This document shows, piece after piece, positions 12,661 through 34,382 of a stretch of DNA of 64,000 nt. Under the pieces are notes generated by a model. That model was given only the letters and a program-made list of their open reading frames with translations. It ran no database searches and was not told the DNA's origin. Source of the stretch: Microbacterium sp. SORGH_AS_0888 (GTDB lineage: Bacteria > Actinomycetota > Actinomycetes > Actinomycetales > Microbacteriaceae); assembly GCF_030818905.1 (NCBI RefSeq), contig NZ_JAUTAZ010000001.1, forward strand, positions 1,116,001-1,180,000. The letters are read 5' to 3'. Each line of letters begins with the position of its first letter. The stretch's first letter is position 1. A program made the position numbers and the translations under genes.

Positions 12661-12675
12661 CGTACCTGCTGGGTG
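12661..12675 (+). promoter_or_regulatory. Element motif CGTACCT, site 1
   Basis: CGTACCTGCTGGGTG, 57 bases before the methyltransferase ATG. TACC and GGGTG form an imperfect dyad. Confidence 0.5.
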
Positions 12676-12732
12676 ATCCTGTTCGTCGCACACGAAGGCG
12701 GACAGGGCCCGAACAGCAGGGAGCCTCCGCCT

Positions 12733-13812
12733 ATGTCCGATCCGTCATCGCCGACCCGTCGTCTGACCGAGCTTCCGGCGCCGGTGTTCACCCACGACCG
12801 CGCGACCCTCTACCTCGGGGACGCCGTCGAGTTCCTCCCGCTGCTGGCCGCGGGGAGCATCGACGCGCTGGTCACCGACCCGCCCTACGGGCTGAGCTTC
12901 AACGGGCACACGTGGGACGACGCATCCGGGTTCCGCGATTCGCTGCCGCACGTGGACACGAGCAGCATGAGTGCACCGGAGGTGTTCGAGGCGTGGTGCA
13001 CGGCCTGGGCTGCAGGTGCACTGCACGCGCTGAAGCCCGGTGCACACGTTGCAGCGTTCGGTGGTGCACGCACGTGGCATCGCATGGTGCGTGGCATCGA
13101 GAATGCGGGGTTCGAGATCCGCGACCAGATCGCGTGGCTGCACACCACCGGGATGCCCAAGAGTATAGACCTCTCGCACGCGATCGATAAGCACCACGGC
13201 GCGCACCGCCCCGACCGCACCGTGCAGACCGATGACCGCGACGGCGTGCTGGGCGCGACTCGCACCGTCACTTCCAAGGGCACCCCGGTGACCGAGGACG
13301 CGCAGCGGTGGGAGGGATGGGGCACGGGACTGCGGCCGGCGTTCGAGCCGATCGTCATCGCCCGCAAACCCCCGGAGGGCAACACACTCCGAAACGTCCT
13401 CGCCCACGGCGTCGGCGGGATCAACATCGACCAGGCCCGGTTCGCCGATGACCGGTGGCCGATGAACGTCGCCCTCGACCCCGGGCAGGCTGACGCGCTG
13501 GATGTGCTGACGGGAACGTGGCAGGGCGAGTCGTTGTCGCGGAAGTTCCCGATCTTCCGGTTCGAGCACAAGCCCGACGCCCGCGAGCGGCCCCGCGCGT
13601 TCGGCATCTCGCATTCGACGGTGAAGCCGCTCGGACTGATGCGGTGGCTCGTCACCCTGCTCACCCCGCCCGGTGGTGTCGTGCTCGAGCCGTTCACCGG
13701 TTCGGGAACGACGGTCGAAGCGGCCCTCATGGCCGGATGCCGAGTGGTCGCCATCGAACGCGACAAGGACTACATCCCGCTCGTTGCCTCCCGGGTGGAC
13801 CGCCAGATCTGA
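12733..13812 (+). CDS. DNA methyltransferase, N4/N6-amino (DPPY) type
   Basis: A 359-residue adenine-N6 or cytosine-N4 methyltransferase. The catalytic TDPPYGLSFNG lies near residue 55, and the SAM-binding motif FTGSGTT lies near the C-terminus, so the motif order is that of the beta class. ATG 12733 has an AGGGAG 10 bases before it. No restriction nuclease is adjacent, so it is an orphan methyltransferase, which mobile elements often carry to escape host restriction or to mark their own DNA. It stands first in the element and is followed by a strong hairpin. Confidence 0.85.
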   Translation: MSDPSSPTRRLTELPAPVFTHDRATLYLGDAVEFLPLLAAGSIDALVTDPPYGLSFNGHTWDDASGFRDSLPHVDTSSMSAPEVFEAWCTAWAAGALHALKPGAHVAAFGGARTWHRMVRGIENAGFEIRDQIAWLHTTGMPKSIDLSHAIDKHHGAHRPDRTVQTDDRDGVLGATRTVTSKGTPVTEDAQRWEGWGTGLRPAFEPIVIARKPPEGNTLRNVLAHGVGGINIDQARFADDRWPMNVALDPGQADALDVLTGTWQGESLSRKFPIFRFEHKPDARERPRAFGISHSTVKPLGLMRWLVTLLTPPGGVVLEPFTGSGTTVEAALMAGCRVVAIERDKDYIPLVASRVDRQI

Positions 13813-13816
13813 GCAC

Positions 13817-13858
13817 GGCCACCAGCGGCCTGCGCGACCGCTCGGGCCGCTGGTGGCC
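13817..13858. terminator. Bidirectional hairpin terminator
   Basis: GGCCACCAGCGGCC at 13817-13830 pairs perfectly with GGCCGCTGGTGGCC at 13845-13858, a 14-bp stem with a 14-base loop. It fills the gap between the convergent methyltransferase and aldo/keto reductase genes. There is no T-run, as is common for actinobacterial terminators. Confidence 0.7.
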
Positions 13859-13866
13859 GCTGGCAG

Positions 13867-14880
13867 TTACGTGTCGGCGCGTTCGCGTGTGTCGCTGGTC
13901 CAGTTCGGGTCATCGAAGTCCGAGCGCTCACCCCTGACCTGGGCCGACAGGTCATCGAGGACGTGTAGCTCGTCGGCGGTGAGGACGATCGATATGGCGG
14001 CGGCGTTCTCCGCGATGCGTTCGGGGCGGCGGGTTCCGGGGATGGGAACAACCGGCACGCCAAGCCGGTCGCCCGCTGCGTACAGCCAGGCCAGCGCGAT
14101 CTGCGCGGGCGTCGCCTCGTGGTCGCCGGCGATCCCGGTCAGCGCTGCGACGACGGTCTGGTTGCCCGCGAAGGCATCGCCGGTGAACCGGGTGAGCCCT
14201 GCCCGCCAGTCACCGGCGAAGACAGCGGGATCGCTCAGGGCTCCTGTGAGGAAGCCTCGCCCCAGGGGTGAGTAGGGCACGAAGCCGATCCCGAGCCTGG
14301 CGGCTGTCGGTGCGACGGCGCGTTCGACGTCGCGGCTCCAGACCGACCATTCGCTCTGCACGGCCGTCATGGGATGGACCCGGTGCGCGGCCTCCAGTTC
14401 GTCGGCGGTCACCTCCGACAACCCCAGATGGCGGACCTTGCCAGCAGCCACTAGCTCGGCCATCGCGCCGACGGTGTCCTCGATCGGTACCGAGACCTCG
14501 CGACGGTGCAGGTAGTACAGGTCGATCGTGTCGATGCCGAGCCTGGTGAGGCTCGCGTCCACGGCCTCGCGCACGTATGCGGGGTCGTTGCGGGCGCGCA
14601 TGGTCTTGTTCGCGATGGAGCCGGTGATGCCGAACTTGGTGGCGATCGTCATCTCCCCGCGGCGGGTCTTCGCGACCTCTCCGACGGTGCGTTCGCTGTC
14701 GCCGTCGCCGTAGATGTCGGCGGTGTCGATGAACGTGACCCCAAGGTCGAGAGCATGGTTCAGCGCGTCCAGGTTCTCTCCGTGCGTGCTGGCGCCGTAC
14801 ACACCGGTCAGGGCCATCGCGCCGAACCCGAGGCGGCTGACGGTCAGACCGTCGCCGAGAAGGGTCATCGGAACAGTCAT
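13867..14880 (-). CDS. Aldo/keto reductase
   Basis: A 337-residue NADP-dependent oxidoreductase with the TIM-barrel signatures: GFGAMALTGVYG near the N-terminus, FIDTADIYGDG with the catalytic Asp and Tyr near residue 57, TKFG with the catalytic Lys, YYLHR with the catalytic His, and PIPGTRRPERI near residue 285. ATG 14880 is preceded by GAAGGAGAA. The ATG overlaps the stop of the MerR gene by four bases, so regulator and enzyme form one operon. It is probably cargo of the element and may detoxify reactive carbonyls. Confidence 0.9.
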   Translation of the reverse strand: MTVPMTLLGDGLTVSRLGFGAMALTGVYGASTHGENLDALNHALDLGVTFIDTADIYGDGDSERTVGEVAKTRRGEMTIATKFGITGSIANKTMRARNDPAYVREAVDASLTRLGIDTIDLYYLHRREVSVPIEDTVGAMAELVAAGKVRHLGLSEVTADELEAAHRVHPMTAVQSEWSVWSRDVERAVAPTAARLGIGFVPYSPLGRGFLTGALSDPAVFAGDWRAGLTRFTGDAFAGNQTVVAALTGIAGDHEATPAQIALAWLYAAGDRLGVPVVPIPGTRRPERIAENAAAISIVLTADELHVLDDLSAQVRGERSDFDDPNWTSDTRERADT

Positions 14881-15362
14881 CGTGGTTCTCCTTCTGTTGC
14901 GGTGAGGGGCTGCACGGCGGCGACTTCGGGCGAGACGGGGCGGCCGTCGCAGTCGAGGCCCGCACCGATCAGGTAGCGGTAGTGGGTCACCTTCTCTTCC
15001 AGGGAGACAAGGTGCTGATCGAGCTCCGCCTGCCGCCTGTGGATGCGATCGCGGTGGGCTTCGAGGATCGCCAGGCGTCGCCCGTGCGTCGCGGCGCCGC
15101 CGGTGACCAGGCGGGAGAACTCCCGCATCTCCTCCGTCGGCATCCCGCTCTCGCGGAGCTTGGCGAGCATCTCCACCAGCGCCGCGTCCCTGCGCGTGTA
15201 CTGGCGGCGGCGATCCGGTCCCCGGCGTACCGCGGGCAGCAGCCCTTCCCGCTCGTACCAGCGCAGGGTGTCCTGACTCAGCCCGCTCAGCCGCGCGACC
15301 TCTGCGATGCCGAGGCTCGCGTCCGTATCGTCCAGCACCTCGAATGCGACCTGTGTGCTCAT
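14877..15362 (-). CDS. MerR-family transcriptional regulator
   Basis: A 161-residue MerR protein. The DNA-binding part reads IAEVARLSGLSQDTLRWYER and EGLLPAVRRGPDRRRQYTRR, followed by a long dimerisation helix to about residue 130. It belongs to the metal-free aldo/keto-reductase-linked group, since no cysteine cluster for metal is present (one Cys only, near residue 138). It is transcribed with the reductase from a promoter that has the 19-base spacer and dyad typical of MerR targets, so it should activate its own operon. Confidence 0.9.
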   Translation of the reverse strand: MSTQVAFEVLDDTDASLGIAEVARLSGLSQDTLRWYEREGLLPAVRRGPDRRRQYTRRDAALVEMLAKLRESGMPTEEMREFSRLVTGGAATHGRRLAILEAHRDRIHRRQAELDQHLVSLEEKVTHYRYLIGAGLDCDGRPVSPEVAAVQPLTATEGEPR

Positions 15363-15368
15363 GCGGCA

Positions 15369-15399
15369 ACGCTATGTCCTGGAGTTCACTCCAACGCAA
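15369..15399 (-). promoter_or_regulatory. MerR-type promoter with 19-base spacer, probably leaderless
   Basis: On the minus strand TTGCGT (15399-15394) is followed by 19 bases and then TAGCGT (15374-15369). The spacer holds the dyad TGGAGT-GA-ACTCCA. The long spacer with a central dyad is the hallmark of MerR-activated promoters. The -10 box ends 6 bases before the ATG at 15362, so the mRNA probably starts at or next to the start codon. Confidence 0.75.
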
Positions 15400-15539
15400 G
15401 CCCACCATCCGCCACTGCCGCCACATGTCCGGGCACGCGCGACGGGCTTTCGAATCGTTCCGCGGAGAAGAGACCATGCCGGTGACCTGCCGGTCAGATC
15501 TCGCCTCAAGACCTGCCCTATCCGCCTACCTATCGAGAG

Positions 15540-15561
15540 GCCCGGGCGGTTCCGCCCGGGC
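15540..15561. repeat. Perfect hairpin upstream of small unknown gene
   Basis: GCCCGGGCGG and CCGCCCGGGC form a perfect 10-bp stem with a 2-base loop, 28 bases before the ATG at 15589. It could act as a terminator for read-through or a site on mRNA. Confidence 0.5.
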
Positions 15562-15588
15562 GATCTCGAAATGGGAGGACGAGCACAG

Positions 15589-16071
15589 ATGGACATCGAC
15601 CCTGCCAAGATCACCCAGGCACCACGAGCCGAAACGAACCGGGACGCAGGGCGGCCGCGGATGCTGTGTCTCGGGGTGGTCGTTTGGTCGGATGACCCGG
15701 ATGTCGAACCGACCGTCCTCGCGCACGACAGCCCCGTGGTGGTCGCGCACGCTACGGCGCTGGCGATCCACGAGGTGCTTGAGGATTCGCCGGCCTATGT
15801 GGGCGCGTCGGAGTTCCTCGAGACGCACCGCGGTCCTCGGGACTGGCGCACCCCCGAGGACGTCGATGCCTGGCTTGAAGCGCTTCGGGAGGCGACCCCG
15901 CACCCGGCGTACTCGTTCCACCAGATCCCCGTCGGCGGCGGCAACGAGAAGGGAGACGACGCCGCTGCCTCCCTCCATCACGCGATGCAGGAGCGTGAAC
16001 GCGCGCTCACCGCGGATGCTCCCGCCGGGCCGGGCGGTGCTCAGATGCCGCGCCCGGGCCTCACGCGATGA
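15589..16071 (+). CDS. Unknown protein
   Basis: A 160-residue acidic, soluble protein without a recognised domain. It is rich in Asp, Glu and Pro, and has a central segment HATALAIHEVLEDSPAYVG that may be helical. ATG 15589 is chosen because GGGAGG lies 11 bases upstream; longer forms would read through the hairpin at 15540. It stands alone on the plus strand between the MerR gene and a second unknown gene. No function can be given. Confidence 0.55.
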   Translation: MDIDPAKITQAPRAETNRDAGRPRMLCLGVVVWSDDPDVEPTVLAHDSPVVVAHATALAIHEVLEDSPAYVGASEFLETHRGPRDWRTPEDVDAWLEALREATPHPAYSFHQIPVGGGNEKGDDAAASLHHAMQERERALTADAPAGPGGAQMPRPGLTR

Positions 16072-16280
16072 CTGTCATGAGGACCCCGCCGGGTGAGAAG
16101 GCGACGATTCGACGCATATCTGCGACTCCAGCGCGCATCTTCCTCGAGATCCCTTCGCGTGCACGCGTCCTGCGGGTAACTCAGGTTCCGACCGCTCATT
16201 ACTGCCCGGGTCGCACGCCCGCACCGAGCCCTCCGCCCCGCGGCCGACGGCTCGCCCACTGATCAAAGGAGGTCACTACC

Positions 16281-17633: not shown

Positions 17634-17640
17634 TCTGTCG

Positions 17641-17725
17641 ACGTGGCGACGCGCGAGTTGACGATTTCTGGCATGTTCCAGACTTTTCCGCGCATCCTGC
17701 CAGGAATCGCTCGCGTTGGCAGGAC
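17641..17725. other. Less GC-rich gap with inverted repeat upstream of Prim-Pol
   Basis: The gap 17634-17883 holds no gene. Within it TCCTGCCA at 17695-17702 pairs with TGGCAGGA at 17717-17724, and next to it is the window's local AT-richer patch with TTGACG at 17659. The place directly upstream of the replication protein suits a promoter or a replication origin; neither can be proved here. Confidence 0.3.
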
Positions 17726-17810
17726 GACGGCGGGTAGGGGTTGAGGTCTCTCGTCTCCCGAGAATGCTCGTGAGCCGGCAACACCCGACCCCGGTCGGTG
17801 GCATTGCTGC

Positions 17811-17825
17811 CGCACCTTCCAGGTG
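17811..17825 (+). promoter_or_regulatory. Element motif CGCACCT, site 2
   Basis: CGCACCTTCCAGGTG, 58 bases before the Prim-Pol start. CACCT-TCC-AGGTG is a perfect palindrome, the most symmetrical copy of the set. Confidence 0.55.
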
Positions 17826-17883
17826 ACACGGCGCACGAGCATCCCACCCCTCGTGCGCCGTGTCCCGGAAGGAGGTGCTGCTC

Positions 17884-18783
17884 GTGACCGTTCCCGACCC
17901 TACCGGCTGGAACCTGCCCACCACCCTTCCCGGTGCTCACCTCGATGCGGCGCTCGCCTACGCGGCGGCGGGTGTGTCGGTGTTCCCGTGCGCGCCGAGC
18001 GCGAAGACGCCACTGACGACGCGCGGGTTCCACGATGCGACGACAGATCCTCGGCGGATCCGGTCGTGGTGGTCATGGATGCCGGAGGCGAACATCGCCC
18101 TGCGCACCGGCACCCGCATCGATGTCGTCGACGTGGACGTGCACGGCGTCGGCAACGGGTTCCCGGTGCTGCGGACGCTGCAACGAGACGGGCTGATCGA
18201 CGGGTGGGGCGCGGCGGTCCGCTCCCCGTCCGGCGGCCTGCACCTCTACTACCCGTCCGACCCGAACCGTCCACAAGGGTCGTGGTCGCGTGGACGGTCG
18301 CATGTGGACTTCCGTGGCACCGGCGGCTACATCATCGCCCCGCCTTCCACCATCACCGCCCCGGACGGCACGACCGCGGCATACGAGATGATCGCGCACG
18401 GGCGGCGCCCGAGACCGGTCGACGCCGACACGCTCCGCGACATCCTCACCCCAACGCCACCACCGGCCCCCCAGCGCCAGCTCCCGTCGGGCGGGGTGGA
18501 CGAGCAGATCGCCGAGCGCCTCTCCGACTGGGTCGCACGGCTGGCGGAGGGCAACCGGAACGCCGGGTTGTTCTGGGCGGCGTGCCGCCTCGCCGAAGCC
18601 GGGCTCAGCGAAGACGAGACGACCGCCGCCCTCGAGACTGCGGCGCTGTCGACCGGGCTGGAGGTGCGGGAGACGCGCGGTACGATCCACTCCGCCCACC
18701 GCACCATTACCGGCAGCAACAGCGGCGGCGCCGTGTCCTCATCATCCGGACGGGCATCCGCAAGTCCGGAGGCCGGGCGATGA
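17884..18783 (+). CDS. Bifunctional DNA primase/polymerase (Prim-Pol)
   Basis: A 299-residue protein of the archaeo-eukaryotic primase superfamily (PF09250). The N-terminal AALAYAAAGVSVFPCAPSAK is followed by the metal-binding VVDVDVHG near residue 80, the SPSGGLHLYY strand near residue 117 and DFRGTGGYIIAPPS near residue 142. It would prime and extend DNA during replication of the excised circle. GTG 17884 has AAGGAGGTG just upstream. It is shorter than Prim-Pol/helicase fusions and no helicase is adjacent, so host helicase must be used. Its stop overlaps the DUF2637 start (ATGA). Confidence 0.88.
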   Translation: MTVPDPTGWNLPTTLPGAHLDAALAYAAAGVSVFPCAPSAKTPLTTRGFHDATTDPRRIRSWWSWMPEANIALRTGTRIDVVDVDVHGVGNGFPVLRTLQRDGLIDGWGAAVRSPSGGLHLYYPSDPNRPQGSWSRGRSHVDFRGTGGYIIAPPSTITAPDGTTAAYEMIAHGRRPRPVDADTLRDILTPTPPPAPQRQLPSGGVDEQIAERLSDWVARLAEGNRNAGLFWAACRLAEAGLSEDETTAALETAALSTGLEVRETRGTIHSAHRTITGSNSGGAVSSSSGRASASPEAGR

Positions 18784-19562
18784 CCTCCCTCGAACAGCAC
18801 CCGCCCCAGCAGACCGTCGGCCGAGTATCCGGCGGGCCCGGCGGCGGGGTGACCCGTGGCGTGGTGACGCTCGCTGTCGCCGGGACGGTGCTGCTGGCGT
18901 TGGGGGCGTTCTGGCTGTCGTTCACGACCCTCCGGGATCTCGCCGTGCTCTCCGGGATCCCCGAGGGGCAAGCATGGGTGTGGCCGTTGATCGTCGACGG
19001 GGTGATCCTCGAGGCGACGATCAGCGTCGTCGCGCTGCGCAACTCCGCCCGCCCCGCGCGGCGATTCGCGTGGGTGCTGCTCGCCGCCGGCGCCGGAGTA
19101 TCCGTCGCAGCGAACATCACCCACGCGATCGTCACCGCCCACACCCAGGTCCCGGCGCTCATCGCGTCGCTGGTCGCGTCCGTGCCCCCACTGGTGCTCC
19201 TGGCGATGACCCACCTCACCGTCGAACTCACCCGCAACAGCGCACAGCCATCCGAGGCGCCGAGAAGCCGCCCGGATGCCTTGCCGCCGCTCTCCAGCGG
19301 CGAAGGATACGAGCGGGATCGTGCCTGGCGCGCGGACGCGAGCACGGACACCCCGACCGCGCGCGCCGAGCCGCAGGATGAGCCCGGGCCGGTCGGGTCG
19401 GGGATGCCGCGTCGGCGGGAGCTGCGGGAGCGGGCGCGGGAGTTGCGTGCGCGGGGGTTGTCGCGTCGTGCGGTGGCGGCGGAGCTCGGGGTGCATCCGA
19501 CGACGGTCGGCCGGTGGGAGCACGCACCTGACCGTCAACAGGACGGAGCAGACGATGACTGA
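18780..19562 (+). CDS. DUF2637 membrane protein with C-terminal helix-turn-helix
   Basis: A 260-residue protein with four hydrophobic helices at about residues 28-48, 58-78, 88-108 and 114-132, matching the DUF2637 (SpdB-like) region found in actinobacterial plasmids and integrated elements. After a polar linker, residues of about 210-245 read RARGLSRRAVAAELGVHPTT, a helix-turn-helix. So it joins a membrane domain to a DNA-binding domain; proteins of this type are linked to plasmid spread or stability. ATG 18780 overlaps the Prim-Pol stop; the end overlaps the next gene by 8 bases. Confidence 0.8.
   Translation: MTSLEQHPPQQTVGRVSGGPGGGVTRGVVTLAVAGTVLLALGAFWLSFTTLRDLAVLSGIPEGQAWVWPLIVDGVILEATISVVALRNSARPARRFAWVLLAAGAGVSVAANITHAIVTAHTQVPALIASLVASVPPLVLLAMTHLTVELTRNSAQPSEAPRSRPDALPPLSSGEGYERDRAWRADASTDTPTARAEPQDEPGPVGSGMPRRRELRERARELRARGLSRRAVAAELGVHPTTVGRWEHAPDRQQDGADDD
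19523..19538 (+). promoter_or_regulatory. Element motif CGCACCT, site 3 (inside a gene)
   Basis: CGCACCTGACCGTCAA lies in the last codons of the DUF2637 gene, 16 bases before the next start at 19555. It is the only copy in the set that overlaps coding sequence. Confidence 0.35.
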
Positions 19563-20201: not shown

Positions 20202-20216
20202 CGCACCTTCCAGATA
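20202..20216 (+). promoter_or_regulatory. Element motif CGCACCT, site 4
   Basis: CGCACCTTCCAGATA, 31 bases before the ATG at 20248, preceded by GGGTGT so that GGTG-TCG-CACC is also symmetrical. Confidence 0.5.
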
Positions 20217-20247: not shown

Positions 20248-21066
20248 ATGAACCCGACACCATCGGGCCCGGATTTCACGACCAGCGAGGGCCTGCGCGC
20301 GCTGCTGCGGGAACTGAACGAGCACGACGCGTGGGCGACGAGCCCGGTCGCGGCTGAGCTGATGGCCTACGCCACCCGCAAGTACGCACCCCTCGCGAAG
20401 GCCTGGCACCGGGCCCCGGAGGACGCCGCCTACGAGGCGTTCATCGCGATGCGCAAGCGCACCACCACCAAGGCGGATGACCCGTGGGCGGCGATCACCC
20501 GCGCGGTCGCGCTCGGCATCGCCGCCGAAGTCCACGCCGACCGCAACATGACCAGCCAGGACAAGGCCCGCCGTCCCGAGAGGCGTCCCGACGAGGAACC
20601 GGTGCGCGCCGGGCACTACGAGGAGTTCTTCTACGACATCCACCCCCACACCCCGCCCCTCGCCGATGCGGCGGATGGGGATCATTCGGTGGATCGGGTG
20701 ATCCGCGCGACGTGCGTGTTCCTCGTCCTGACCGACTGGCCTGCCCGTCCCGTCGAGCAGGCCGTGGAGTACATCGCCCACCGCGCCACCGGCCTGTCCT
20801 CCGGCGATTCCGCCGTCGACGTCGTCTCCCGCGACCTGCACATCGCCCTGCGCCTCGGATACACGCCCGAAGCCTGGGCAGCACTGGTGCGGCTCGTGGT
20901 CGGCACGAACACCGGCCGGCGCCGCACCGGGCAGTACGGACTGTTCGCCCGTGTGCTCCTCGGCGATGACGTCGCCGACCTGCTCCGCGACGATGACCTC
21001 GTTGCGGCGTCCCGCCGGAGCGCGCACGTACCTGACAAGTGGGAGCGAAACGGGGGTGTGTCATGA
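20248..21066 (+). CDS. Unknown protein with weak resemblance to sigma-factor region 2
   Basis: A 272-residue soluble protein. Residues 40-95 hold APEDAAYEAFIAMRKR and DDPWAAITRAVALGIAAE, which recall the PEDAxQEAF and WL-TVA helices of sigma-70 region 2. The middle (about 150-185) has a CVFLVLTDWPARPVEQAVEY helix and the end holds short basic helices that could read DNA. The likeness is by eye and weak. Its ATG has AGGGAG upstream, and its stop overlaps the ParB-like gene (ATGA), so the two are coupled. A DNA-binding or regulatory role for the element is possible. Confidence 0.65.
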   Translation: MNPTPSGPDFTTSEGLRALLRELNEHDAWATSPVAAELMAYATRKYAPLAKAWHRAPEDAAYEAFIAMRKRTTTKADDPWAAITRAVALGIAAEVHADRNMTSQDKARRPERRPDEEPVRAGHYEEFFYDIHPHTPPLADAADGDHSVDRVIRATCVFLVLTDWPARPVEQAVEYIAHRATGLSSGDSAVDVVSRDLHIALRLGYTPEAWAALVRLVVGTNTGRRRTGQYGLFARVLLGDDVADLLRDDDLVAASRRSAHVPDKWERNGGVS

Positions 21067-22250
21067 GCCGTGGGCATCTGGTGCTCGAGCACGCGATCGA
21101 CCAGATCACCGAGGGCCACTCCTACCGCCGCGACCTCGGCGACCTGGAGGAGCTGACGGAGTCTGTCCGCCGGTTCGGGCTGCTCTCACCGATCGTGATC
21201 ACCACCGGCAACGTCCTCATCTCCGGCAACCGGCGCCTGGCCGTCATGCGCACCCTCGGGCACCGCACCGTGCCCGTCTGGATCGTCCCCGGGGTCTCAG
21301 ACAAGCTGTCGATGGTCCTCGCGATCCAAGACGAGAACACCCTCCACAAGATGCTCGCCCCACTCGAGCAAGCCGAGCTCTACGCAGAGCTGAAAGAGCT
21401 CTACGCGGAAGAGAACGCCCGCAAGCAGGAAGCCACCCAGTTCGGTGCGACCACACCGTCCGAGTCGCCGAGCGGGGGCGTGCCCCCGTCCCAGGGTTCG
21501 GGTGGGGGTAACGGTGGTGTCGATTCGACACCACCGTTACCCCCGAGAGGTGAGGGGCAGAAGACGCGGGTGCAGGCGGCGAAGGCCGTCACCGGGCGGG
21601 ACTCGCACGGGATGCTCGACCAGGTCGTGGAACTGAAGCAGATCGCTGCCAGCGAGGCGGAGCACCCCGAGGTGCGGCAGGCGGCAGCCGAGGCGCTGCT
21701 GGAGTTGAACACGGACGGGAAGGTCAACGGCCGGTTCCTGCGGGTGAAGCTGCTGCAGGCGATCCACACGCTGCGCCGGTGGGCGACGCACCCGGATGAA
21801 CCCGACCCCGTCCGTGCGGCGGCCACGTCAGAGCTCGCCCTGCTGGAAGGGCAGGAGCATCCGAAGGACGCGCTGAAGGAAGCCACCCGTGCGATCGGGT
21901 ACCTCACCCAGCTGCGCGCAGACGTCGCAGCCGCAGCCGGGCCGGCCGGGTGGAAGGACGCGGATCCGCTGCTGCGGGAGAAGCACGCGATCCGCAAGCT
22001 CGTCGACCTGCTCCGCCGCGAGCACGGCTGGTGGGACCGCTACGACCCCGCCGACTTCGGGAAGTACGCCGACGACGAGCAGTGGGAGCTCGTCGAGACC
22101 TGCATCACCGAAGCCGCCCGATTCCTCGACCACGCCCGCACCGCCCGCGATCACGCCACTGCTCACCACGAGGTCGATGCTGAGGACGAGGACGCGGACG
22201 GTCCTGCTGACGGAGACTCCTCGGAGGGGGTGCCCGGTGCCGACGTATGA
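21063..22250 (+). CDS. ParB/Srx-domain protein
   Basis: A 395-residue protein. The ParB N-terminal fold is at residues 5-100, with ELTESVRRFGLLSPIVITTG and the box LISGNRRLAVMRTLG (the GERRxxA-like segment), then a DENTLHKMLAPLEQAELY segment as in ParB proteins. A Gly/Ser/Pro linker at about 138-165 joins it to a helical C-terminal half. The linker is encoded by two palindromes, one of 41 bp. A CTP-switch ParB role in partition or in regulation is the family expectation; no ParA gene is next to it. Confidence 0.83.
   Translation: MSRGHLVLEHAIDQITEGHSYRRDLGDLEELTESVRRFGLLSPIVITTGNVLISGNRRLAVMRTLGHRTVPVWIVPGVSDKLSMVLAIQDENTLHKMLAPLEQAELYAELKELYAEENARKQEATQFGATTPSESPSGGVPPSQGSGGGNGGVDSTPPLPPRGEGQKTRVQAAKAVTGRDSHGMLDQVVELKQIAASEAEHPEVRQAAAEALLELNTDGKVNGRFLRVKLLQAIHTLRRWATHPDEPDPVRAAATSELALLEGQEHPKDALKEATRAIGYLTQLRADVAAAAGPAGWKDADPLLREKHAIRKLVDLLRREHGWWDRYDPADFGKYADDEQWELVETCITEAARFLDHARTARDHATAHHEVDAEDEDADGPADGDSSEGVPGADV
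21473..21544. repeat. Two palindromes inside the ParB-like gene, one of 41 bp and perfect
   Basis: CGGGGGC (21473-21479) and GCCCCCG (21482-21488) form a first stem. The arm at 21504-21523, beginning GGGGGTAACGG, is the exact reverse complement of the arm at 21525-21544 with one base (21524) between, a 20-bp perfect dyad. Both lie in the linker-coding region, where protein constraint is low. A ParB-binding (parS-like) site, a transfer-origin hairpin or an inserted palindromic element are all possible. Confidence 0.85.
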
Positions 22251-22683: not shown

Positions 22684-22713
22684 CGAGGTAGGACCGCGGG
22701 TCGACAGGGGTGG

Positions 22714-22728
22714 CGCACCTACCGGGTG
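22714..22728 (+). promoter_or_regulatory. Element motif CGCACCT, site 5
   Basis: CGCACCTACCGGGTG, 36 bases before the ATG at 22765, again with GGGTGG directly upstream. Confidence 0.5.
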
Positions 22729-22764
22729 TGCCACCCCTTGTCGTTCCCGGGAAGGAACCCTGTC

Positions 22765-23454
22765 ATGTCGTCACCTCTCACCGATGACCGCCTGCGCCGG
22801 CGGCGCCGGCTGATCATCACCCTCACCGCGACCGGCCTGGTCGTCCTGACCTTCGCCGGCGTCGGCATCTACGGGTTCGTCGCCCGCCCCGACCAGACCC
22901 CGCCACCGGTCGCCACGAGCAGCACGCCCGTGACCCCGACCGTGAGCCCGAGCGCCCAGCCCACGGTCGGGGCGTTGCCGGGGCTGCCTGCGACGGATGA
23001 CCCGCAGGAGTACGCGGGAGCGGTCGCGCATGCCCTGTTCGACTGGGACACCTTCACCCTTCACACCCCCGCCGACCACCGCGCCGTGCTCATCGACGAC
23101 GCGGACCCGTCCGGCACCGAGACGCCCGGCCTGGTCACCGACCTCGACGGGTACGTCCCTTCGGTTGAGACGTGGCGGGATCTGTCCGAGTACCGCACCC
23201 GGCAGTCCCTCATGATCGATCGGATCTTCGTACCGGAGCAGTGGGACGAGGCGGTCGCGGCGGCGAACGGGCAGATCACGGACGGCACGATCGCGTACAC
23301 GATCGAGGGCACCCGACACCGGGAAGGCGTCTGGTACGACGCCCCGGTCGCAAGCGACCACCCGGTCGTGTTCACCGTGTTCGTCGCGTGCGAGCCCGTG
23401 TTCGACCGGTGTCACCTGCTGCGCCTGTCCCAGCTCGACAACCCCCTCCGCTGA
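22765..23454 (+). CDS. Single-pass membrane protein of the transfer apparatus
   Basis: A 229-residue protein with a basic N-terminus (RLRRRRR), one transmembrane helix at about residues 16-38, a Thr/Pro/Ser-rich linker to about residue 70, and a globular outer domain of about 155 residues with EYAGAVAHALFDWDTF. This layout, and the place at the head of the type IV genes, resemble the VirB8/TcpC class of channel proteins. ATG 22765 with GGAAGGA upstream is preferred over a GTG at 22726, which lies in the motif. Confidence 0.65.
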   Translation: MSSPLTDDRLRRRRRLIITLTATGLVVLTFAGVGIYGFVARPDQTPPPVATSSTPVTPTVSPSAQPTVGALPGLPATDDPQEYAGAVAHALFDWDTFTLHTPADHRAVLIDDADPSGTETPGLVTDLDGYVPSVETWRDLSEYRTRQSLMIDRIFVPEQWDEAVAAANGQITDGTIAYTIEGTRHREGVWYDAPVASDHPVVFTVFVACEPVFDRCHLLRLSQLDNPLR

Positions 23455-24626: not shown

Positions 24627-24654
24627 CCGCCAGGGACGGACACGGGGCGGGTGG

Positions 24655-24669
24655 CGCACCTGACAGATG
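24655..24669 (+). promoter_or_regulatory. Element motif CGCACCT, site 6
   Basis: CGCACCTGACAGATG, 35 bases before the ATG at 24705, with GGGTGG directly upstream. Confidence 0.5.
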
Positions 24670-24704
24670 CCCGCCCGCCCCGCCGTTCGTCAGGAGCCCC
24701 ACCC

Positions 24705-25518: not shown

Positions 25519-25534
25519 CGCACCTGTCCAGGTG
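25519..25534 (+). promoter_or_regulatory. Element motif CGCACCT, site 7
   Basis: CGCACCTGTCCAGGTG, 44 bases before the ATG at 25579. CACCT and AGGTG are a perfect dyad with four bases between. Confidence 0.5.
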
Positions 25535-27534: not shown

Positions 27535-27548
27535 GCCATTCCTGGGCG

Positions 27549-27563
27549 CGTACCTGACCGGCG
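27549..27563 (+). promoter_or_regulatory. Element motif CGTACCT, site 8
   Basis: CGTACCTGACCGGCG, 33 bases before the ATG at 27597. Confidence 0.5.
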
Positions 27564-27596: not shown

Positions 27597-29057
27597 ATGG
27601 CTACCGCATCCCCTGTGAACGAGTTCGAACTGTCCCCGGTGAAGTTCTCCCGCCTCACCAAGCGCGGGATCATCCTGGGCCTGTCACTGCCGCAGGTGAT
27701 CGCGCTCGCTGTCGCGGTGGCAGTGTTCGTCGCCTCCCTCTACACCGGCGGCCCCGCCGCCCTCTACACCTCACCCGTCTGGGGCACCGCGCTCGCCCTC
27801 ACCTGGGCAGGGGTCGGCGGGCGCAAGCTCGTCGAGTGGGTGCCGATCAGCCTGCACTGGGTGGCACGGTCGTCGCTCGGGCAGACCCGATACCGGCGCC
27901 GCATCGCCAAACCCCGACCCGCGGGGACGCTCGCACTCCCAGGGGATGCGGCGCCGCTTCGCCAGTACGAGGACCCCGACACCGGGGCGGTGATGGTCCA
28001 CGACCCGCACGCGCAGACCCTGACCGTTCTGGTGGAGGTGACGCATCCGTCGTTCATCCTCCTCGACCCCGGTGAGCAGGAACGCCGTGTCCACGCCTGG
28101 GGCCGGGTGCTGTCCACCGCGTGCCGCTCCATCCGCATCGCCCGCCTCCAGGTCCTCGAACGCACCGTCCCCGACTCCGGACAAGGACTGGCGCAATGGT
28201 GGGCCGAGCAGGGCACCGACGACGACTCCTGGGTTGCCCGCACCTACCGAGAGCTCATCGACCGGGCAGGACCCACCGGGGAACGCCACATCTCCACGAT
28301 CTCCCTCTCCCTCGACATGCGCGCAGCCACCCGGCCGATCCGCGCCGCCGGCGGCGGCCTCACAGGCGCAGCCGGAGTGCTACGGCAGGAGATGAACACC
28401 CTCACCACGGCGCTGCGCACCGCCGACCTCAAACCCAGCGCGTGGTACACGCCCGGGCAGCTCGCGATCATCCTCCGCTCCGCCTACGACCCCGCCATCG
28501 CCACCACCCTCGAACGCGCAGGCGACATCGGCAAAGACCTCGCCGCCGCAGGACCCGTCGCCGTCGAGGAAACGTGGGACGGGCTGCGGTCCGACTCCGC
28601 GCATCACGTGGTGCTGTGGATCAGCGAGTGGCCGCGGGCGCTGGTGTATCCGGGGTTCCTCGCCCCACTGCTGCTGAGCTCCGGGATCCGGCGGGCGTTC
28701 ACGCTGCTGTGTGACCCGATCCGCTCCGACCAGGCCGCCCGCGACATCCGCAAGAAGAAGACGGAATACATCTCCGACGCCGCCCAGCGGCAGAAGGTCG
28801 GGCAGATCGAAGACGCCCAGCAGACCGCCGAATACCAGGACGTCCTCCAGCAGGAAGCCGACCTCACCACCGGCCACGGCGTCCTGCGATACACCGGCCT
28901 CATCGCCATCTCCGCACCCACCACGGAAGAGCTCGAGGCCGCGGTCGCCGCGATCGAACAAGCCGCGATCCAGGCCTCCTGCGAGACCAGGCGCCTCGTC
29001 GGGCAACAGGCCCAAGCGTTCGTCGCCGCCGCACTGCCACTGTGCCGCGGGATCTGA
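27597..29057 (+). CDS. SCO6880-like conjugation protein (PrgI-like N-terminus)
   Basis: A 486-residue protein with two transmembrane helices near the N-terminus (about residues 28-48 and 52-74) and a large cytoplasmic domain. The pattern, an N-terminal VirB3/PrgI-like hairpin followed by a region like the N-terminal half of VirB4, is that of SCO6880-type proteins found in actinobacterial conjugative elements. No Walker motifs are present, since the ATPase half is encoded by the next gene. TTGGAG lies 6 bases before ATG 27597. It would link the channel to the ATPase. Confidence 0.8.
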   Translation: MATASPVNEFELSPVKFSRLTKRGIILGLSLPQVIALAVAVAVFVASLYTGGPAALYTSPVWGTALALTWAGVGGRKLVEWVPISLHWVARSSLGQTRYRRRIAKPRPAGTLALPGDAAPLRQYEDPDTGAVMVHDPHAQTLTVLVEVTHPSFILLDPGEQERRVHAWGRVLSTACRSIRIARLQVLERTVPDSGQGLAQWWAEQGTDDDSWVARTYRELIDRAGPTGERHISTISLSLDMRAATRPIRAAGGGLTGAAGVLRQEMNTLTTALRTADLKPSAWYTPGQLAIILRSAYDPAIATTLERAGDIGKDLAAAGPVAVEETWDGLRSDSAHHVVLWISEWPRALVYPGFLAPLLLSSGIRRAFTLLCDPIRSDQAARDIRKKKTEYISDAAQRQKVGQIEDAQQTAEYQDVLQQEADLTTGHGVLRYTGLIAISAPTTEELEAAVAAIEQAAIQASCETRRLVGQQAQAFVAAALPLCRGI

Positions 29058-29085
29058 GCCGAGCGACCCGACAGCGGCTGATCGG

Positions 29086-29100
29086 CGTACCTGACGGATG
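29086..29100 (+). promoter_or_regulatory. Element motif CGTACCT, site 9
   Basis: CGTACCTGACGGATG, 32 bases before the ATG at 29133. Confidence 0.5.
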
Positions 29101-29132
29101 TCCCACGTTCGTTCAGAGGAAGGCACCTGCGC

Positions 29133-30653
29133 ATGGGAACCGACGGTTCGAAGAAGCAGCTCTATTCGACAGTGCTCGTCGAGGACGGCACGGAGAAACG
29201 CGCCCGCCGCGCGCGGGAACGCGCCGCCCGCCAGGTCGTCGCCCGCGATCACGCCACCCAGCGCCGGCAAGCCCGGGAGCGCGCGGATGCGGAGCGCGCG
29301 GAGGCCCGCTCGACCCTCTACCTGCCGCCCGGCGGGGAGCCGGGGAAGGCGGGGTTGAGGTCGTACCGGCCGTTCCGAGTGCCGGCGCATCAGGACACGT
29401 CGGCGGCGCTACGGGGCGCGTATCCGTTCCTCGCCGAAGGCGGCCTCGGCAGTCAGGGCGTGTTCATCGGCCAGGACATGTACTCCGGCGGCAGCTTCGT
29501 CTACGACCCGTGGCGGCTGTACCAGCGGGGCATCATCACCGCCCCGAACCTCGTCCTCGCCGGAATCGTCGGCTCCGGGAAATCCTCGCTCGCAAAGTCG
29601 CTCTACACGCGGTCGATTCCGTTCGGTCGGCGCGTCTACGTCCCCGGCGACCCGAAAGGCGAGCACACGCCCGTCGCCGAAGCCGTCGGCGGGAAGGCGA
29701 TCGTCCTCGGCCACGGGCTCCGCAACCGCCTCAACCCCCTGGATGAGGGCTACCGGCCCGCAGGCCTCAGCGACGCCGAATGGGCATCCACCGTCGCCGC
29801 ACGCCGCCGCGACCTCATCGGCGCCCTCGCCGAGACCGTGCTGGAACGTGCGCTGTCTCCGTTGGAGCACACGGTCATCGACATCGCCCTCCAAGCCGTG
29901 GTGTCGACGGCGTCGGTGCCGATCCTGCCGATGGTCGTCGACCGCATCCTCACCCCCGACCCGGGCGGGGACGAGCGTCTCGCCGAGGACGGGCGCCTGG
30001 TCGGTCACGCCCTCCGGCGCCTGGTTGCAGGTGACGTCGCGGGCCTGTTCGACGGGCCCAGCACGGTGTCATTCGATCCGTCGTTGCCGATGATCACTCT
30101 CGACCTGTCCCGCGTGGTGGAGAACTCCACGTTGATCTCGGTGTTGATGACGTGTTCGTCCGCGTGGATGGAATCCGCGCTCCTGGACCCGAACGGTGGG
30201 CAGCGGTGGGTCGTCTACGACGAGGCCTGGAGGCTCATGTCCCACCCGGCCCTGTTGCGGCGGATGGACGCGCATTGGCGGCTCGCCCGCCACTACGGGA
30301 TCGCGAACCTGTTGATCTTCCACAAGCTCACCGACCTCGACAACGTCGGCGACCAGGGCTCGGCCATGCGCAGCCTCGCCAACTCGCTGTTGGCGAATGC
30401 CGAGTCGCGGATCATCTACCGGCAGGAGTCGGATCAGATCGGGACGACCGCGAAGATGCTGGGCCTGACCGGCACCGAGCAGAAGCTGCTGCCGACGCTC
30501 GGGACGGGGCAGGGGCTGTGGCGGATCAAGGAGTCCAGCTATGTGGTTCAGCACCAGCTGCATCCGGAGGAGTTGCGGGCCTTCGACACGACCCAGCGCA
30601 TGGGCCAGATCCCGCGGAAAAACGCCGCAGAAGCCCCGAAATGGGGCCTGTGA
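29133..30653 (+). CDS. VirB4-like conjugation ATPase
   Basis: A 506-residue ATPase that powers the conjugation channel from the cytoplasmic side. Walker A is GIVGSGKSS at residues 144-152, and Walker B is VVYDEAWRL near residue 361, followed by HYGIANLLIFHKLTDL with the conserved polar segment. A basic N-terminal stretch (residues 20-58, rich in Arg and Ala) precedes the catalytic domain. AGAGGAAGG lies upstream of the ATG. Together with the preceding protein it makes up a complete VirB4 function. Confidence 0.9.
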   Translation: MGTDGSKKQLYSTVLVEDGTEKRARRARERAARQVVARDHATQRRQARERADAERAEARSTLYLPPGGEPGKAGLRSYRPFRVPAHQDTSAALRGAYPFLAEGGLGSQGVFIGQDMYSGGSFVYDPWRLYQRGIITAPNLVLAGIVGSGKSSLAKSLYTRSIPFGRRVYVPGDPKGEHTPVAEAVGGKAIVLGHGLRNRLNPLDEGYRPAGLSDAEWASTVAARRRDLIGALAETVLERALSPLEHTVIDIALQAVVSTASVPILPMVVDRILTPDPGGDERLAEDGRLVGHALRRLVAGDVAGLFDGPSTVSFDPSLPMITLDLSRVVENSTLISVLMTCSSAWMESALLDPNGGQRWVVYDEAWRLMSHPALLRRMDAHWRLARHYGIANLLIFHKLTDLDNVGDQGSAMRSLANSLLANAESRIIYRQESDQIGTTAKMLGLTGTEQKLLPTLGTGQGLWRIKESSYVVQHQLHPEELRAFDTTQRMGQIPRKNAAEAPKWGL

Positions 30654-31188
30654 TGAGCGTACGTCTCATTCCCGTTTCGCACCAGGGATCCGGCTTGTCC
30701 TCGCCCCGGGAGATGGTCCCGTGGTGCTGAGTGAGGAGGAGTTGGCGCGGAACATGATGGCGCTCGATGACGGTCTGCACCGCATCGAGAAGCAGTTCGA
30801 CGAGCACGTCGTGTTCTTCGACGAGGACCCGCTGACCTTCGGCGGCGGGCACTTCGTCCTCTACCCCGTGGACGGCTCGTCGCCTCGGTTCGCGATCGAG
30901 GAGCAGTATCCGCTCGGGGTCGACTGGTCCGATGAGGGTCGAGTACCGACGTCATGGACGTGGGTGGCCGAGGCGTATCTGCCCCAACCGGACGGCTCCT
31001 ATATGTGGGTGCCGCACGGCGAAGGCGAGGTCGCCTCGGCCGACTATGCCATCCTTCTGCAGATCGCGGAAGGGTGGGCAGAAGCTCTCAGCGCAGCGCT
31101 CGAACGCGAACAATCGCTTGCCCCCGACCCAGTTCGTGTCGCTGACACGGCTTCGGCGACACGACCGCCGACGGATCGCTCTATGTGA
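30653..31188 (+). CDS. Unknown protein, probable one-base frameshift near its start
   Basis: The main frame is open well before GTG 30721 and encodes FAPGIRLVLAPGDGPVVLSEEE and then about 145 more residues of an acidic soluble protein with DEDPLTFGGGHFVLYPVDG. ATG 30653, which overlaps the VirB4 stop (TGATG), lies in another frame and yields only 25 residues. The coding character before GTG 30721 suggests that the two frames were once joined and that one base was lost near 30675-30682. If not, the gene starts at GTG 30721 after a CGGGAGA site and covers 30721-31188. Function unknown. Confidence 0.55.
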
Positions 31189-31224
31189 CGCGCCCCGGCG
31201 GGAGGGTGCGCATGTTCCGGGACG

Positions 31225-31832
31225 TCACATCAGTGCGTTCCAAAGTCCAATCGTCGCGAGCGCAACGGGCGCGAACAGCGCCACGACAAGGAACAGCGCG
31301 AAGAACATGAGCGATCCGAAGAACGCGCCGAGCCGCTGGTAAGGGAAACTGCTCGCCGCTCCCAGGGCGTACGCGACCTCGGCGATACCGAGGGCAATGA
31401 ACATCATCGTCAGACTGCCCCCGAGTGCCGCGTATCCGACCAGTACGACGAATCGCAGCATGTCGTTGTTCGGGGCGATGTCGACCTCGACTGTCCTCGA
31501 CAGCGCTCGCCCGTCGCGCCAGAACGCCGCCACGCTCGCGAGAGCAAGGATCGCACCAACGATGAGCGTTGTCGCCGCGATGAGTGGGGGTCTGCGGCTG
31601 CATCGATCACGGTGCCCAGCCAGGTGACGACGGGGTCCAGCAGACTCAGCTGCAGTTTCTCGATGAGCGTGTCTCGGAGTACGTCCTGCGGCGGATGGCC
31701 CGTCCACAGCACGGCCAGTGCCAGCAAGAGCACGGCCCACAACAGGAGCGTGATGAACCACTTCTTCTTCAGGATGTCGAGCACGCTATTCGCGGTCGTG
31801 TTCGCTTTCGTGATGAACTCGGTCGGATCCAT
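31225..31832 (-). pseudogene. Small membrane protein, broken by a one-base frameshift
   Basis: The first frame, from ATG 31832, gives about 80 residues with one transmembrane helix (WFITLLLWAVLLLALAVLW); it then loses coding character. From about 31590 a second frame continues with PLIAATTLIVGAILALASV and two or three more helices, ending at 31225. The switch lies at five G (plus strand 31586-31590), consistent with loss of one base. It is the only minus-strand gene among the transfer genes, so it is probably an insertion of unrelated cargo. Function unknown. Confidence 0.6.
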
Positions 31833-31907
31833 CCCTCTCTTGTAACAGCGACTTCTGACGTCCCCACGGGTCCGGCCACTGAGGTGAGGCCTGCTCCGCT
31901 CCTGCCG

Positions 31908-31922
31908 CGTACCTGTGCAATA
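31908..31922 (+). promoter_or_regulatory. Element motif CGTACCT, site 10 (touches start codon)
   Basis: CGTACCTGTGCAATA directly abuts the ATG at 31922, unlike the other copies, which lie 16-58 bases upstream. If the motif is a promoter core, this gene would have a leaderless mRNA. Confidence 0.45.
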
Positions 31923-32461
31923 TGGCTCGCAAGAACACCCCGCCCTGGAAGCACCGCACTAGCCGTGGACAAGATCAGCGACAGCGCGCAGTCCCGCCGG
32001 TTCTGCCGCAGATCGTTCTCAAGGCGGTCAGCGCCGACACGTTGATCGCGACCGTGAACGGCGACAGGATAAACGCCACCCCGATCGCCAGGACCGAGGT
32101 CCACACGGCGGTCACCGAGCTCGTCGCTCACCTCGGGGCACCGACACGCGTGGAGGTGCGAGAGCTGGACGGCACCGTCTACGCCGACATCCTCACCCCA
32201 CCCGCCCAAGCTGCCGATGGGCGGGCAGCCAGCGAGCCCGACACGGCGCGGCGGGCGGCACCGGAGCTCGTGGAATTCGCCGGGGACGGGTACGTGGCCG
32301 GTGAGGACGTCGCGATCGCGGTGATTCTCCGGCACACGTCCGCCGACCACACCGGCCACGCCCGTGCCCTCCTCGACCGGGCAGAGCTCGCAGACGCGTC
32401 CGGCGAGCTGATCCTGCTCGGGCGGATCTCCGAGACGCTGTCGATCCACCGCACTGACTGA
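31922..32461 (+). CDS. Unknown basic-to-acidic protein
   Basis: A 179-residue soluble protein. The first 30 residues are strongly basic (KHRTSRGQDQRQR), the rest acidic with two beta-rich stretches (VNGDRINATPIARTEVHTAV and VEVRELDGTVYADIL) and an end like AEDVAIAVIL-helix proteins. There is no ribosome site before the ATG, which directly follows the CGTACCT motif. It lies just upstream of the coupling protein gene. No domain recognised. Confidence 0.6.
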   Translation: MARKNTPPWKHRTSRGQDQRQRAVPPVLPQIVLKAVSADTLIATVNGDRINATPIARTEVHTAVTELVAHLGAPTRVEVRELDGTVYADILTPPAQAADGRAASEPDTARRAAPELVEFAGDGYVAGEDVAIAVILRHTSADHTGHARALLDRAELADASGELILLGRISETLSIHRTD

Positions 32462-32509
32462 ACAAGACACCGGCTCCGCGAGGCGCTGTCGGAGCGCGGT
32501 GTCGGGTGT

Positions 32510-32525
32510 CGCACCTGTTCTCCTG
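32510..32525 (+). promoter_or_regulatory. Element motif CGCACCT, site 11
   Basis: CGCACCTGTTCTCCTG, 46 bases before the ATG at 32572, preceded by GGGTGT. Confidence 0.45.
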
Positions 32526-32571
32526 CCCCTCGCCATCACCGACGTGTGTGGGGCAGGAAGGCACTTCTGTC

Positions 32572-34353
32572 ATGTTTGGTCCTGTGCAGGCGAAACCCGC
32601 GAACGACCTGTTCATCAACCTCGCCCTCGGCGCGATCGTCACAGCTGCCTGCTTCGCCGGTCTCCTGCGTGTTGCGGGGTCGGTGACGGCGTTCCTCGCC
32701 GGGCTCCCGCAGCCCACCGGCGGTGTCAGCTCCGGCATCGCCGTCCTCGCCTCACCCCTCGACCCCGGGGCCGCGTTGGGGGCGGCGGGGCTGAACGCGT
32801 TTCTGTACTGGCTCGTCGTCGCTGTCTTCCTCACCGCCCTCACCGCGGCGGGATTCTTCATCGCCCGCGCGATCCTCCGAGGCCGGGGCCGGGTCGATCC
32901 GCATCGGCTCGCCGGTACCGCAACCGGTGCGGAGGCCGCCGCGGTCGCGTCCCGGAAGGCGCTGGTGAAGAAGGCCGCGACCTTGCGGCCATCCCTCGCA
33001 GGCGAGAAGGCGCAGCCCGAGGACGTCGGATATCTGCTGGGGACGTCGAAGGGCGGGCAGGTGTGGGCGACGGTCGAGGACTCGATCCTCCTCATCGGGC
33101 CGCCCCGGTCGGGCAAGGGACTGCATGTGGTGATCAACGCGATCCTCGACGCGCCCGGGGCGGTAATCACGACCTCCACCCGGCCCGACAACCTCACCGC
33201 CACGCTCAAAGCCCGACAGAAGAAGGGTGAGGTGGCGGTGTTCGATCCGCAGCATCTCGCGCCAGGGCTGCCGGCAGGGATGCGGTGGTCGCCGGTGCGG
33301 GGCTGCCAGGACCCGCTGACGGCGATGATCCGCGCGAAAGGACTGGCGACCGCGACCGGGTTTGGCGGGGTGCAGGACGCCGGGTTCTGGGAAGGGAAGA
33401 CCACCGCAGCGATCCAAGCGCTCCTGCACGCCGCGGCACTCGACGGGCGGGATGCGAAGACCCTCTACCAGTGGGCTCTCAATCCGACGCTCGCCGCCGA
33501 CGCCGTCCGGATCCTCTCCTCCCACCCCGACGCCGCCGAAGGCTGGGCGGACAGCCTGGATGCGATGGTGCAGTCCGATCCGCGCACGAGGGACTCGATC
33601 TGGCAGGGCGTCTCCCTCGCCTTCGCGGCGCTGGCCGATCCCCGCGTCCTCGACGCCGTCTCACCCGCACAAGGTGAGGAGTTCGATCCGGAGACGTTCC
33701 TCCTCGGCAACGGCACCCTCTACCTCCTCGCCACGGGAGCGGGGGCCGGCGCATCGTCGGCGCTGGTGGCGGCGTTCATTGAAGACCTCGTCGAGACAGC
33801 CCGGAAGATCGCCGCCCGCTCCCCGGGCGCGCGGATGGACCCGCCGCTGCTGCTCGCCCTGGACGAGATCGGGAACCTCGCACCGTTGCCCAGCCTTCCG
33901 ACGTTGATGGCCGAAGGCGGCGGCACCGGCATCACCTCGCTGCCCGTGCTGCAGTCTTTGGCGCAGGCGCGGGAGAAGTGGGGTGAGAACCAGGCGAACG
34001 CGATCTGGGACGCCTCCATCGTGAAGATCATCCTCGGCGGCGCCTCCAACTCCCGCGACCTCCAGGACCTGTCCACGCTGATCGGGGACAGGGATGAGAC
34101 CACCGACTCCGTCACCACCGACGCGTACGGCGCGCACTCGAACCAGCGGTCGATCCGGCGAGTGCCGATCCTCCCGCCCGACGTGCTGCGCACCCTCCCG
34201 TTCGGCACCGGAGTCGTGATGCTCCGCACCGCACGCCCCATCATCACCCGCCTTCGCCCCTGGCCGGCCAGGCCCGACGCCGACGCCCTGAAGGCGCAGC
34301 GGGGCGAGATCGAGAAGGCCCTCCAGGCCGGCACGACGCCGGCGGCGGAGTGA
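32572..34353 (+). CDS. VirD4/TraG-type coupling protein
   Basis: A 593-residue ATPase that delivers the DNA-protein complex to the channel. Two transmembrane helices are at about residues 15-45 and 80-103. Walker A is IGPPRSGKGLH at about 174-184 and Walker B is LLLALDEIGNLAPLP near residue 425, followed by GITSLPVLQSLAQ, the TraG/VirD4 signature. AGGAAGG lies upstream of the ATG. It is the firmest sign that the element can move DNA between cells, or be mobilised. Confidence 0.93.
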   Translation: MFGPVQAKPANDLFINLALGAIVTAACFAGLLRVAGSVTAFLAGLPQPTGGVSSGIAVLASPLDPGAALGAAGLNAFLYWLVVAVFLTALTAAGFFIARAILRGRGRVDPHRLAGTATGAEAAAVASRKALVKKAATLRPSLAGEKAQPEDVGYLLGTSKGGQVWATVEDSILLIGPPRSGKGLHVVINAILDAPGAVITTSTRPDNLTATLKARQKKGEVAVFDPQHLAPGLPAGMRWSPVRGCQDPLTAMIRAKGLATATGFGGVQDAGFWEGKTTAAIQALLHAAALDGRDAKTLYQWALNPTLAADAVRILSSHPDAAEGWADSLDAMVQSDPRTRDSIWQGVSLAFAALADPRVLDAVSPAQGEEFDPETFLLGNGTLYLLATGAGAGASSALVAAFIEDLVETARKIAARSPGARMDPPLLLALDEIGNLAPLPSLPTLMAEGGGTGITSLPVLQSLAQAREKWGENQANAIWDASIVKIILGGASNSRDLQDLSTLIGDRDETTDSVTTDAYGAHSNQRSIRRVPILPPDVLRTLPFGTGVVMLRTARPIITRLRPWPARPDADALKAQRGEIEKALQAGTTPAAE

Positions 34354-34367
34354 TCCGGGGTGGGCTT

Positions 34368-34382
34368 CGTACCTGTCGGTTA
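34368..34382 (+). promoter_or_regulatory. Element motif CGTACCT, site 12
   Basis: CGTACCTGTCGGTTA, 43 bases before the ATG at 34426. Confidence 0.45.

Follow-up and report, generated by a model that had tools for sequence, protein, structure and literature searches.

The 64,000-nt stretch of Microbacterium sp. SORGH_AS_0888 analysed here (the window) carries the tRNA-side integrase, coupling protein and primase of an actinobacterial integrative conjugative element with a type IV secretion system. The heptamer CGYACCT (Y, pyrimidine), which recurs ahead of many genes of this element, is a real and conserved motif, and is most likely the promoter code of the element: a -10-like box at a fixed distance from the predicted transcription start, with no -35 box. 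The likely reader of the motif is a 272-amino-acid protein encoded by the element itself, the leading candidate on the strength of its structural models. Motif and protein probably form a -35-less sigma system resembling that of T4 gp55, here controlling conjugation.

All 12 CGYACCT copies listed in the first-pass annotation of this sequence were found on the forward strand where it had placed them, together with a 13th that it overlooked (21027, 36 nt upstream of the ParB-like gene). The window contains 35 copies, compared to 17.3 ± 3.9 in shuffled sequences (0 of 100 shuffles reached 35). The element span (12501-37400) has 17 on the gene strand and 4 on the opposite strand, where 400 kb of genome from the same strain (71 and 67 copies on the two strands) predict about 4.3 per strand. 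A Shine-Dalgarno sequence plus the start of an open reading frame (ORF), or an ATG exactly 14 nt after the first base of the motif (position +14), followed 11 of the 17 forward element sites and 6 of 136 control sites (p = 6e-9). The motif does not precede all genes: those starting at 18780, 23469, 25948, 35067 and 35910 have no site directly upstream in the window list of CGYACCT copies. Ten sites had been placed 31-58 bases before a start codon; measured from the motif end, only 8 of the 12 are, and the distance from the first motif base to the start codon (start codons as chosen in this analysis) is 14-73 nt. Other details were as described: the 19523 site overlaps the end of the DUF2637/helix-turn-helix (HTH) gene; the 31908 site touches an ATG, its +14 base being the A of the start codon of gene 31922-32461; and the extra sequence noticed ahead of several sites, GGGTGNCG, lies upstream of 4.

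A weight-matrix scan had been proposed in the first-pass annotation. The matrix used here was built from 206 of 311 sites of related elements; L079, which is closest to the window, was excluded along with the window itself and all sites that have 25 bases in common with it, and other members of the window's clade remained in the training set. With this matrix, the 12 claimed sites plus 21027 are exactly the 13 forward element matches scoring at least 8 bits. At 14 bits or more, the 24.9 kb of the element hold 10 forward matches and 1 reverse match, 0.25 per strand being expected from the 400 kb of own genome, so that the element has such sites at about 40 times the density of its genome. The flanks alone, scored without the core, also placed the claimed sites above control CGYACCT sites (p = 1.6e-7). 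The plain consensus is not specific genome-wide (113 matches with one mismatch, compared to 55 for the reversed control pattern), nor is CGYACCT-N7-ATG (10 compared to 12 for its control).

Related elements were collected by a family search with the VirB4-like protein, which had matches with E values of 1e-40 or lower in 67 of the 398 genomes searched (closest relative in Microbacterium marinilacus, 96%); Leucobacter chinensis is another carrier. The 120 related loci comprise 40 places and 80 named loci, two sets that overlap, and L076-L078 of the 40 are distant systems; sites were deduplicated by their surrounding sequence. Among the matches listed for the closest clade, CGYACCT precedes most orthologues of the genes that it precedes in the window, with diverging flanks; exceptions include L039 and L081, where the sigma-like gene is preceded by CACACCT, and L051, without the motif throughout. 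The window stretch and the related loci together hold 740 distinct forward copies and 231 reverse copies, the strand bias being absent in a few loci. The sigma-like gene was not seen in 51 of the 121 available stretches, many of which are short or cut.

The motif lies at a fixed distance from the predicted starts. An ATG stands at offset 14 in 49 of the 740 forward sites (6 at offset 13, 7 at offset 15), compared to 2 of the 231 reverse sites. These 49 ATGs open 35 ORFs of at least 60 amino acids and 8 short ORFs ending in a stop that overlaps a start codon; 6 do neither. Several correspond, as orthologues, to gene 31922 or to the 22765 protein, and two are DUF6112-like by eye. A Shine-Dalgarno pattern occurred in 0 of the 33 nonredundant +14-ATG sites. 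In genes with a leader, 196 nonredundant sites, selected without regard to positions 13 and 14, show a pyrimidine-purine step at 13/14 in 80%, compared to 26% of 179 reverse controls, and no other step between 8 and 23 exceeds 36%; the window sites have it in 11 of 13, with the step one base later at 25519 and 32510. GG at -11/-10 and G at -1 (motif numbering) are common to the two classes, and across relatives 10 nt separate this GG from the GY at 1/2. Over 283 leader sites, columns -28 to -18 never exceed 0.05 bits, leaving no -35 signal. The ATG peak and the pyrimidine-purine step suggest a -10-type box with transcription starting at position 14. Of the annotation's alternatives, a shared promoter core or an operator, the fixed +14 in leaderless and leadered genes thus favours the former.

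The annotation also suggested a sigma-like factor encoded by the element, an idea in agreement with the held-out enrichment of the motif in the element and with the predicted fold of the gene product at 20248..21066. The best matches of two AlphaFold models of this protein are sigma region 2; only 2 of the 35 top structure matches are not sigma factors (Nab2, aligned to the C-terminal part). The C-terminal part has no confident region-4 match, and whole-chain structure matches appear only at a root-mean-square deviation above 11. Homologues numbered 1721 among 7995 scored candidates; outside this type of element, plasmids gave 1 partial match and phages none. Two sequence comparisons failed to link it to sigma factors: the window protein has no match in Pfam (E 10), NCBIfam or PHROGs, and hhalign against the 14 host sigma factors gave a probability of 0.3%, a sequence link that is not significant. 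Since the sequence profile test failed, the protein is described here as working like a sigma factor and not as a member of the sigma-70 family. Literature searches on sigma factors and promoter motifs in elements of this kind, judged by listings and covering mostly open-access papers, showed nothing recognised as the present system.

These weaknesses leave some room for a promoter read by a host sigma factor, with the 272-amino-acid protein acting as a co-activator, an anti-sigma factor or otherwise: the host genome has 14 PF04542 matches, and a sigma-like fold is no proof of function. Such a reading is nevertheless unlikely, given the 40-fold enrichment in the element over its own genome. 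In addition, 18 distant type IV secretion loci of the same host family, with the factor not in the stretch available, showed neither enrichment nor strand bias (42 forward, 48 reverse), and the motif variants track the clade of the factor; motif and factor co-occur.

It is rather improbable that the motif is an operator for another regulator of the element acting over ordinary promoters, even though the element encodes candidates (the ParB_N and HTH proteins) and the perfect dyads reported at 17813-17825 and 25521-25534 are both present. The AGGTG arm is perfect in just these two window sites, and the AGGTG/GATG stretch mostly fails as a dyad arm: in the leadered genes of relatives, 53% of the 196 sites have C at position 13 and so lose the A-T pair of the dyad, and the 3' arm behaves like a transcription initiator. 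The orientation bias (740 and 231) also speaks against an operator, and the constant distance to the ATG and to the pyrimidine-purine step is promoter geometry.

Somewhat less probable again is that the motif acts in RNA, as a leader element in which CCTNNC (positions 4-9) masks the Shine-Dalgarno sequence or binds a regulator. CCTNNC complements a stretch before or in the Shine-Dalgarno sequence in 22 of 203 sites, compared to 7.4 ± 2.5 in swaps; at the 24655 site CCTGAC complements GTCAGG at the Shine-Dalgarno sequence of DUF6112 gene a. Within ten gene families, pairing was found in 24 of 162 leaders compared to 11.5 ± 2.3 when partners were swapped inside a family (0 of 300 as high), and in 40 compared to 30.4 ± 3.5 with G-U pairs allowed (2 of 300 as high), kinship within families being able to inflate both counts. 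The SSB and DUF6112 examples vary on both sides. In 165 leaders, the predicted accessibility of the Shine-Dalgarno sequence was 0.319 in the native read-through RNA, compared to 0.376 after swapping of the motif region (p = 2e-5), the primase family showing no such lowering; it rose to 0.461 in RNA beginning at position 14, a gain that is partly trivial because that RNA is shorter. Against an RNA element as the whole explanation, pairing concerns a minority of leaders, weakens when G-U pairs are allowed and has 0 exact cases in the TraG family; the Rfam scan returned only tRNA-Pro, a tRNA remnant and one sub-threshold match at chance level; and the +14 starts without Shine-Dalgarno sequence and the GG at -11/-10 would stay unexplained. 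If the motif is a promoter, masking would act on read-through RNA only, as in T4, and the pairing may be regarded as a tendency in a minority of leaders. An outer RNA hairpin around the motif, striking at 22714 and 24655, was rejected as a general feature, flank pairing across the 203 sites exceeding that of partner swaps by only a little (z -2.7).

A sigma-54-like promoter is very improbable: the GG and GY, 10 nt apart, reproduce the -24/-12 spacing of sigma-54 promoters, but we know of no counterpart of ACCT in these, and the absence of any Sigma54_DBD (PF04552) match from the host genome, in a search positive in 4 of 14 control genomes, largely refutes it.

In the favoured promoter reading, each promoter would consist of GG at about -25/-24, CGYACCT from -14 to -8, often followed by GNC, and a pyrimidine-purine step as the initiator, would lack a recognisable -35 box, and would most likely be read by the host RNA polymerase together with the divergent sigma-like protein of the element. 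This factor would drive its own gene plus the type IV secretion, replication and SSB genes, and some mRNAs would begin at the ATG itself. Having a region-2-like domain and no confident region-4 match, it would work like gp55 at the -35-less late promoters of T4. Pairing of CCTNNC with the Shine-Dalgarno sequence in read-through RNA would mean that a gene is translated best from its own promoter. For a broader proposal we see the case as evenly balanced: that a family of conjugative elements in many actinobacteria has a gp55-like, region-2-only sigma factor unrecognised by family libraries, with an element-wide regulon of GC-rich, -35-less YGYACCT promoters (-14 to -8) to which its own gene and leaderless mRNAs belong, the box also serving as an anti-Shine-Dalgarno sequence that silences read-through.

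Late transcription in T4 has the sliding clamp and gp33 as further partners. The likeness between the two systems lies in geometry and fold, the element being known here from sequence and models. As described in parts of the T4 literature, gp55 is the sigma factor for the -35-less late promoters (PMC7892883, PMC2988020). In the element CGYACCT replaces the T4 late box, GG is conserved about 10 nt upstream, the protein is longer with a different C-terminal part, and the setting is an actinobacterial conjugative element. Sections of a further T4 account describe sequestration of the ribosome site in I-TevI, soc, e and further genes, where upstream transcripts fold and hide the site, and a dedicated late promoter of I-TevI placed so that its own transcripts cannot form the masking structure (PMC2988022). 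Compared with these hairpins, the pairing in the element is short and statistical (24 of 162 exact, 11.5 expected), and comes from sequence alone.

To our knowledge, how actinobacterial conjugative elements stay silent and then activate their transfer apparatus is largely open. If the proposal is true, one protein and about 13 promoters with exactly predicted start bases would constitute a single switch in this element, which could turn on its transfer machinery independently of the usual promoters of the host. Region-2-only, -35-less sigma factors, documented in T4, would then extend to conjugation and to GC-rich promoters, and starts could be predicted for many related elements, including leaderless genes and short leader ORFs. 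Extracytoplasmic function (ECF) sigma factors are small sigma proteins that activate their own gene and a dedicated promoter set; the system proposed here shares these traits, and differs from ECF regulons in lacking a confident region-4 match and conserved -35 columns, and in not being found by sigma profiles. RUSTI, a type IV secretion integrative element of cheese actinobacteria, has in common with this element, as far as parts of its description go, a primase-polymerase, a coupling protein of the VirD4/TraG/TraD family, a tyrosine recombinase and a tRNA target, and the term sigma factor has 0 occurrences in the main text of that paper, which also describes RNA-seq of Glutamicibacter JB182 (PMC5526665).

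Table 1 Motif sites and element genes in the window, with matrix scores and predicted transcription starts.
Feature	Position	Strand	Gene context or description	Score (bits)	Predicted start
Motif site	12661..12667	+	before DNA methyltransferase gene	13.3	12675
Motif site	17811..17817	+	before Prim-Pol gene	16.9	17825
Motif site	19523..19529	+	before 147-amino-acid ORF	18.1	19537
Motif site	20202..20208	+	before sigma-like gene itself	18.1	20216
Motif site	21027..21033	+	before ParB-like gene	13.3	21041
Motif site	22714..22720	+	before gene 22765-23454 (no Pfam match)	17.6	22728
Motif site	24655..24661	+	before DUF6112 gene a	19.9	24669
Motif site	25519..25525	+	before DUF6112 gene b; pyrimidine-purine step 1 base later	9.8	~25534
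Motif site	27549..27555	+	before conserved element gene 27597-29057 (no Pfam match)	15.8	27563
Motif site	29086..29092	+	before VirB4-like gene	16.9	29100
Motif site	31908..31914	+	+14 is A of ATG, gene 31922-32461; predicted leaderless mRNA	14.9	
Motif site	32510..32516	+	before TraG/VirD4 gene; pyrimidine-purine step 1 base later	14.6	~32525
Motif site	34368..34374	+	before SSB gene	18.8	34382
DUF2637/HTH gene	18780-19562		HTH protein		
Sigma-region-2-like protein	20248..21066	+	272 amino acids; proposed promoter specificity factor, structure-based		
ParB_N-domain protein	21063..22250	+	overlaps end of sigma-like gene		
VirB4-like protein	29133..30653	+	no Pfam match; bait for collecting related elements		
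TraG/VirD4 coupling protein	32572..34353	+	PF12696, PF02534		
Tyrosine integrase	35910..37145	+	adjoins tRNA-Pro 37322-37396		

Further genes of the element encode two DUF6112 proteins, Prim-Pol and SSB; the product of 29133..30653 is presumed to be VirB4-like from its ATPase motifs. The 20202 site would possibly allow autoactivation of the sigma-like gene, and the 25519 site has the lowest score among the 12 claimed. A search of the window for an attachment repeat on the far side gave none, so the methyltransferase site at 12661 may or may not belong to the element.

Several sites are accompanied by repeats or short ORFs. The predicted start base 17825 is also the first base of a 15-bp inverted repeat (by eye), and relatives have in their TraG leaders a hairpin that sets in no more than about 2 bases from +14, with a stem that varies on both sides (by eye). 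Long inverted repeats surround the motif at 22707-22737 and 24644-24681 (GGGGTGGC/GCCACCCC, plus a GC-rich pair of greater length); some relatives have comparable stems that vary on both sides (by eye), and a role as terminator or insulator against upstream transcripts is possible. In L079, L088, L090, L091 and L092, an ORF of 19-25 codons runs from the +14 ATG to a stop overlapping a start codon near the 31922 orthologue; the short +14 ORFs may encode leader peptides that are leaderless and translationally coupled.

L197:9737-10807 (- strand) encodes a protein that is related to the sigma-like one at a very great distance (E 1e-6). This locus has 5 forward and 0 reverse motif copies, with an ORF start 30-75 nt downstream for 1 of the 5, and tblastn found there none of the other proteins of the element; it may mark a second family of such factors.

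The sole reverse match of at least 14 bits (14.3 bits) is the tRNA-Pro gene itself (37367-37373, - strand), which contains GCGCACCTGAC, and is probably a coincidence. This complete tRNA-Pro gene (37322-37396, - strand) lies beside the integrase, and a degraded second copy (37408-37476, - strand; 97.6% identity over 42 nt), 80 bases off, is possibly the trace of an integration event.

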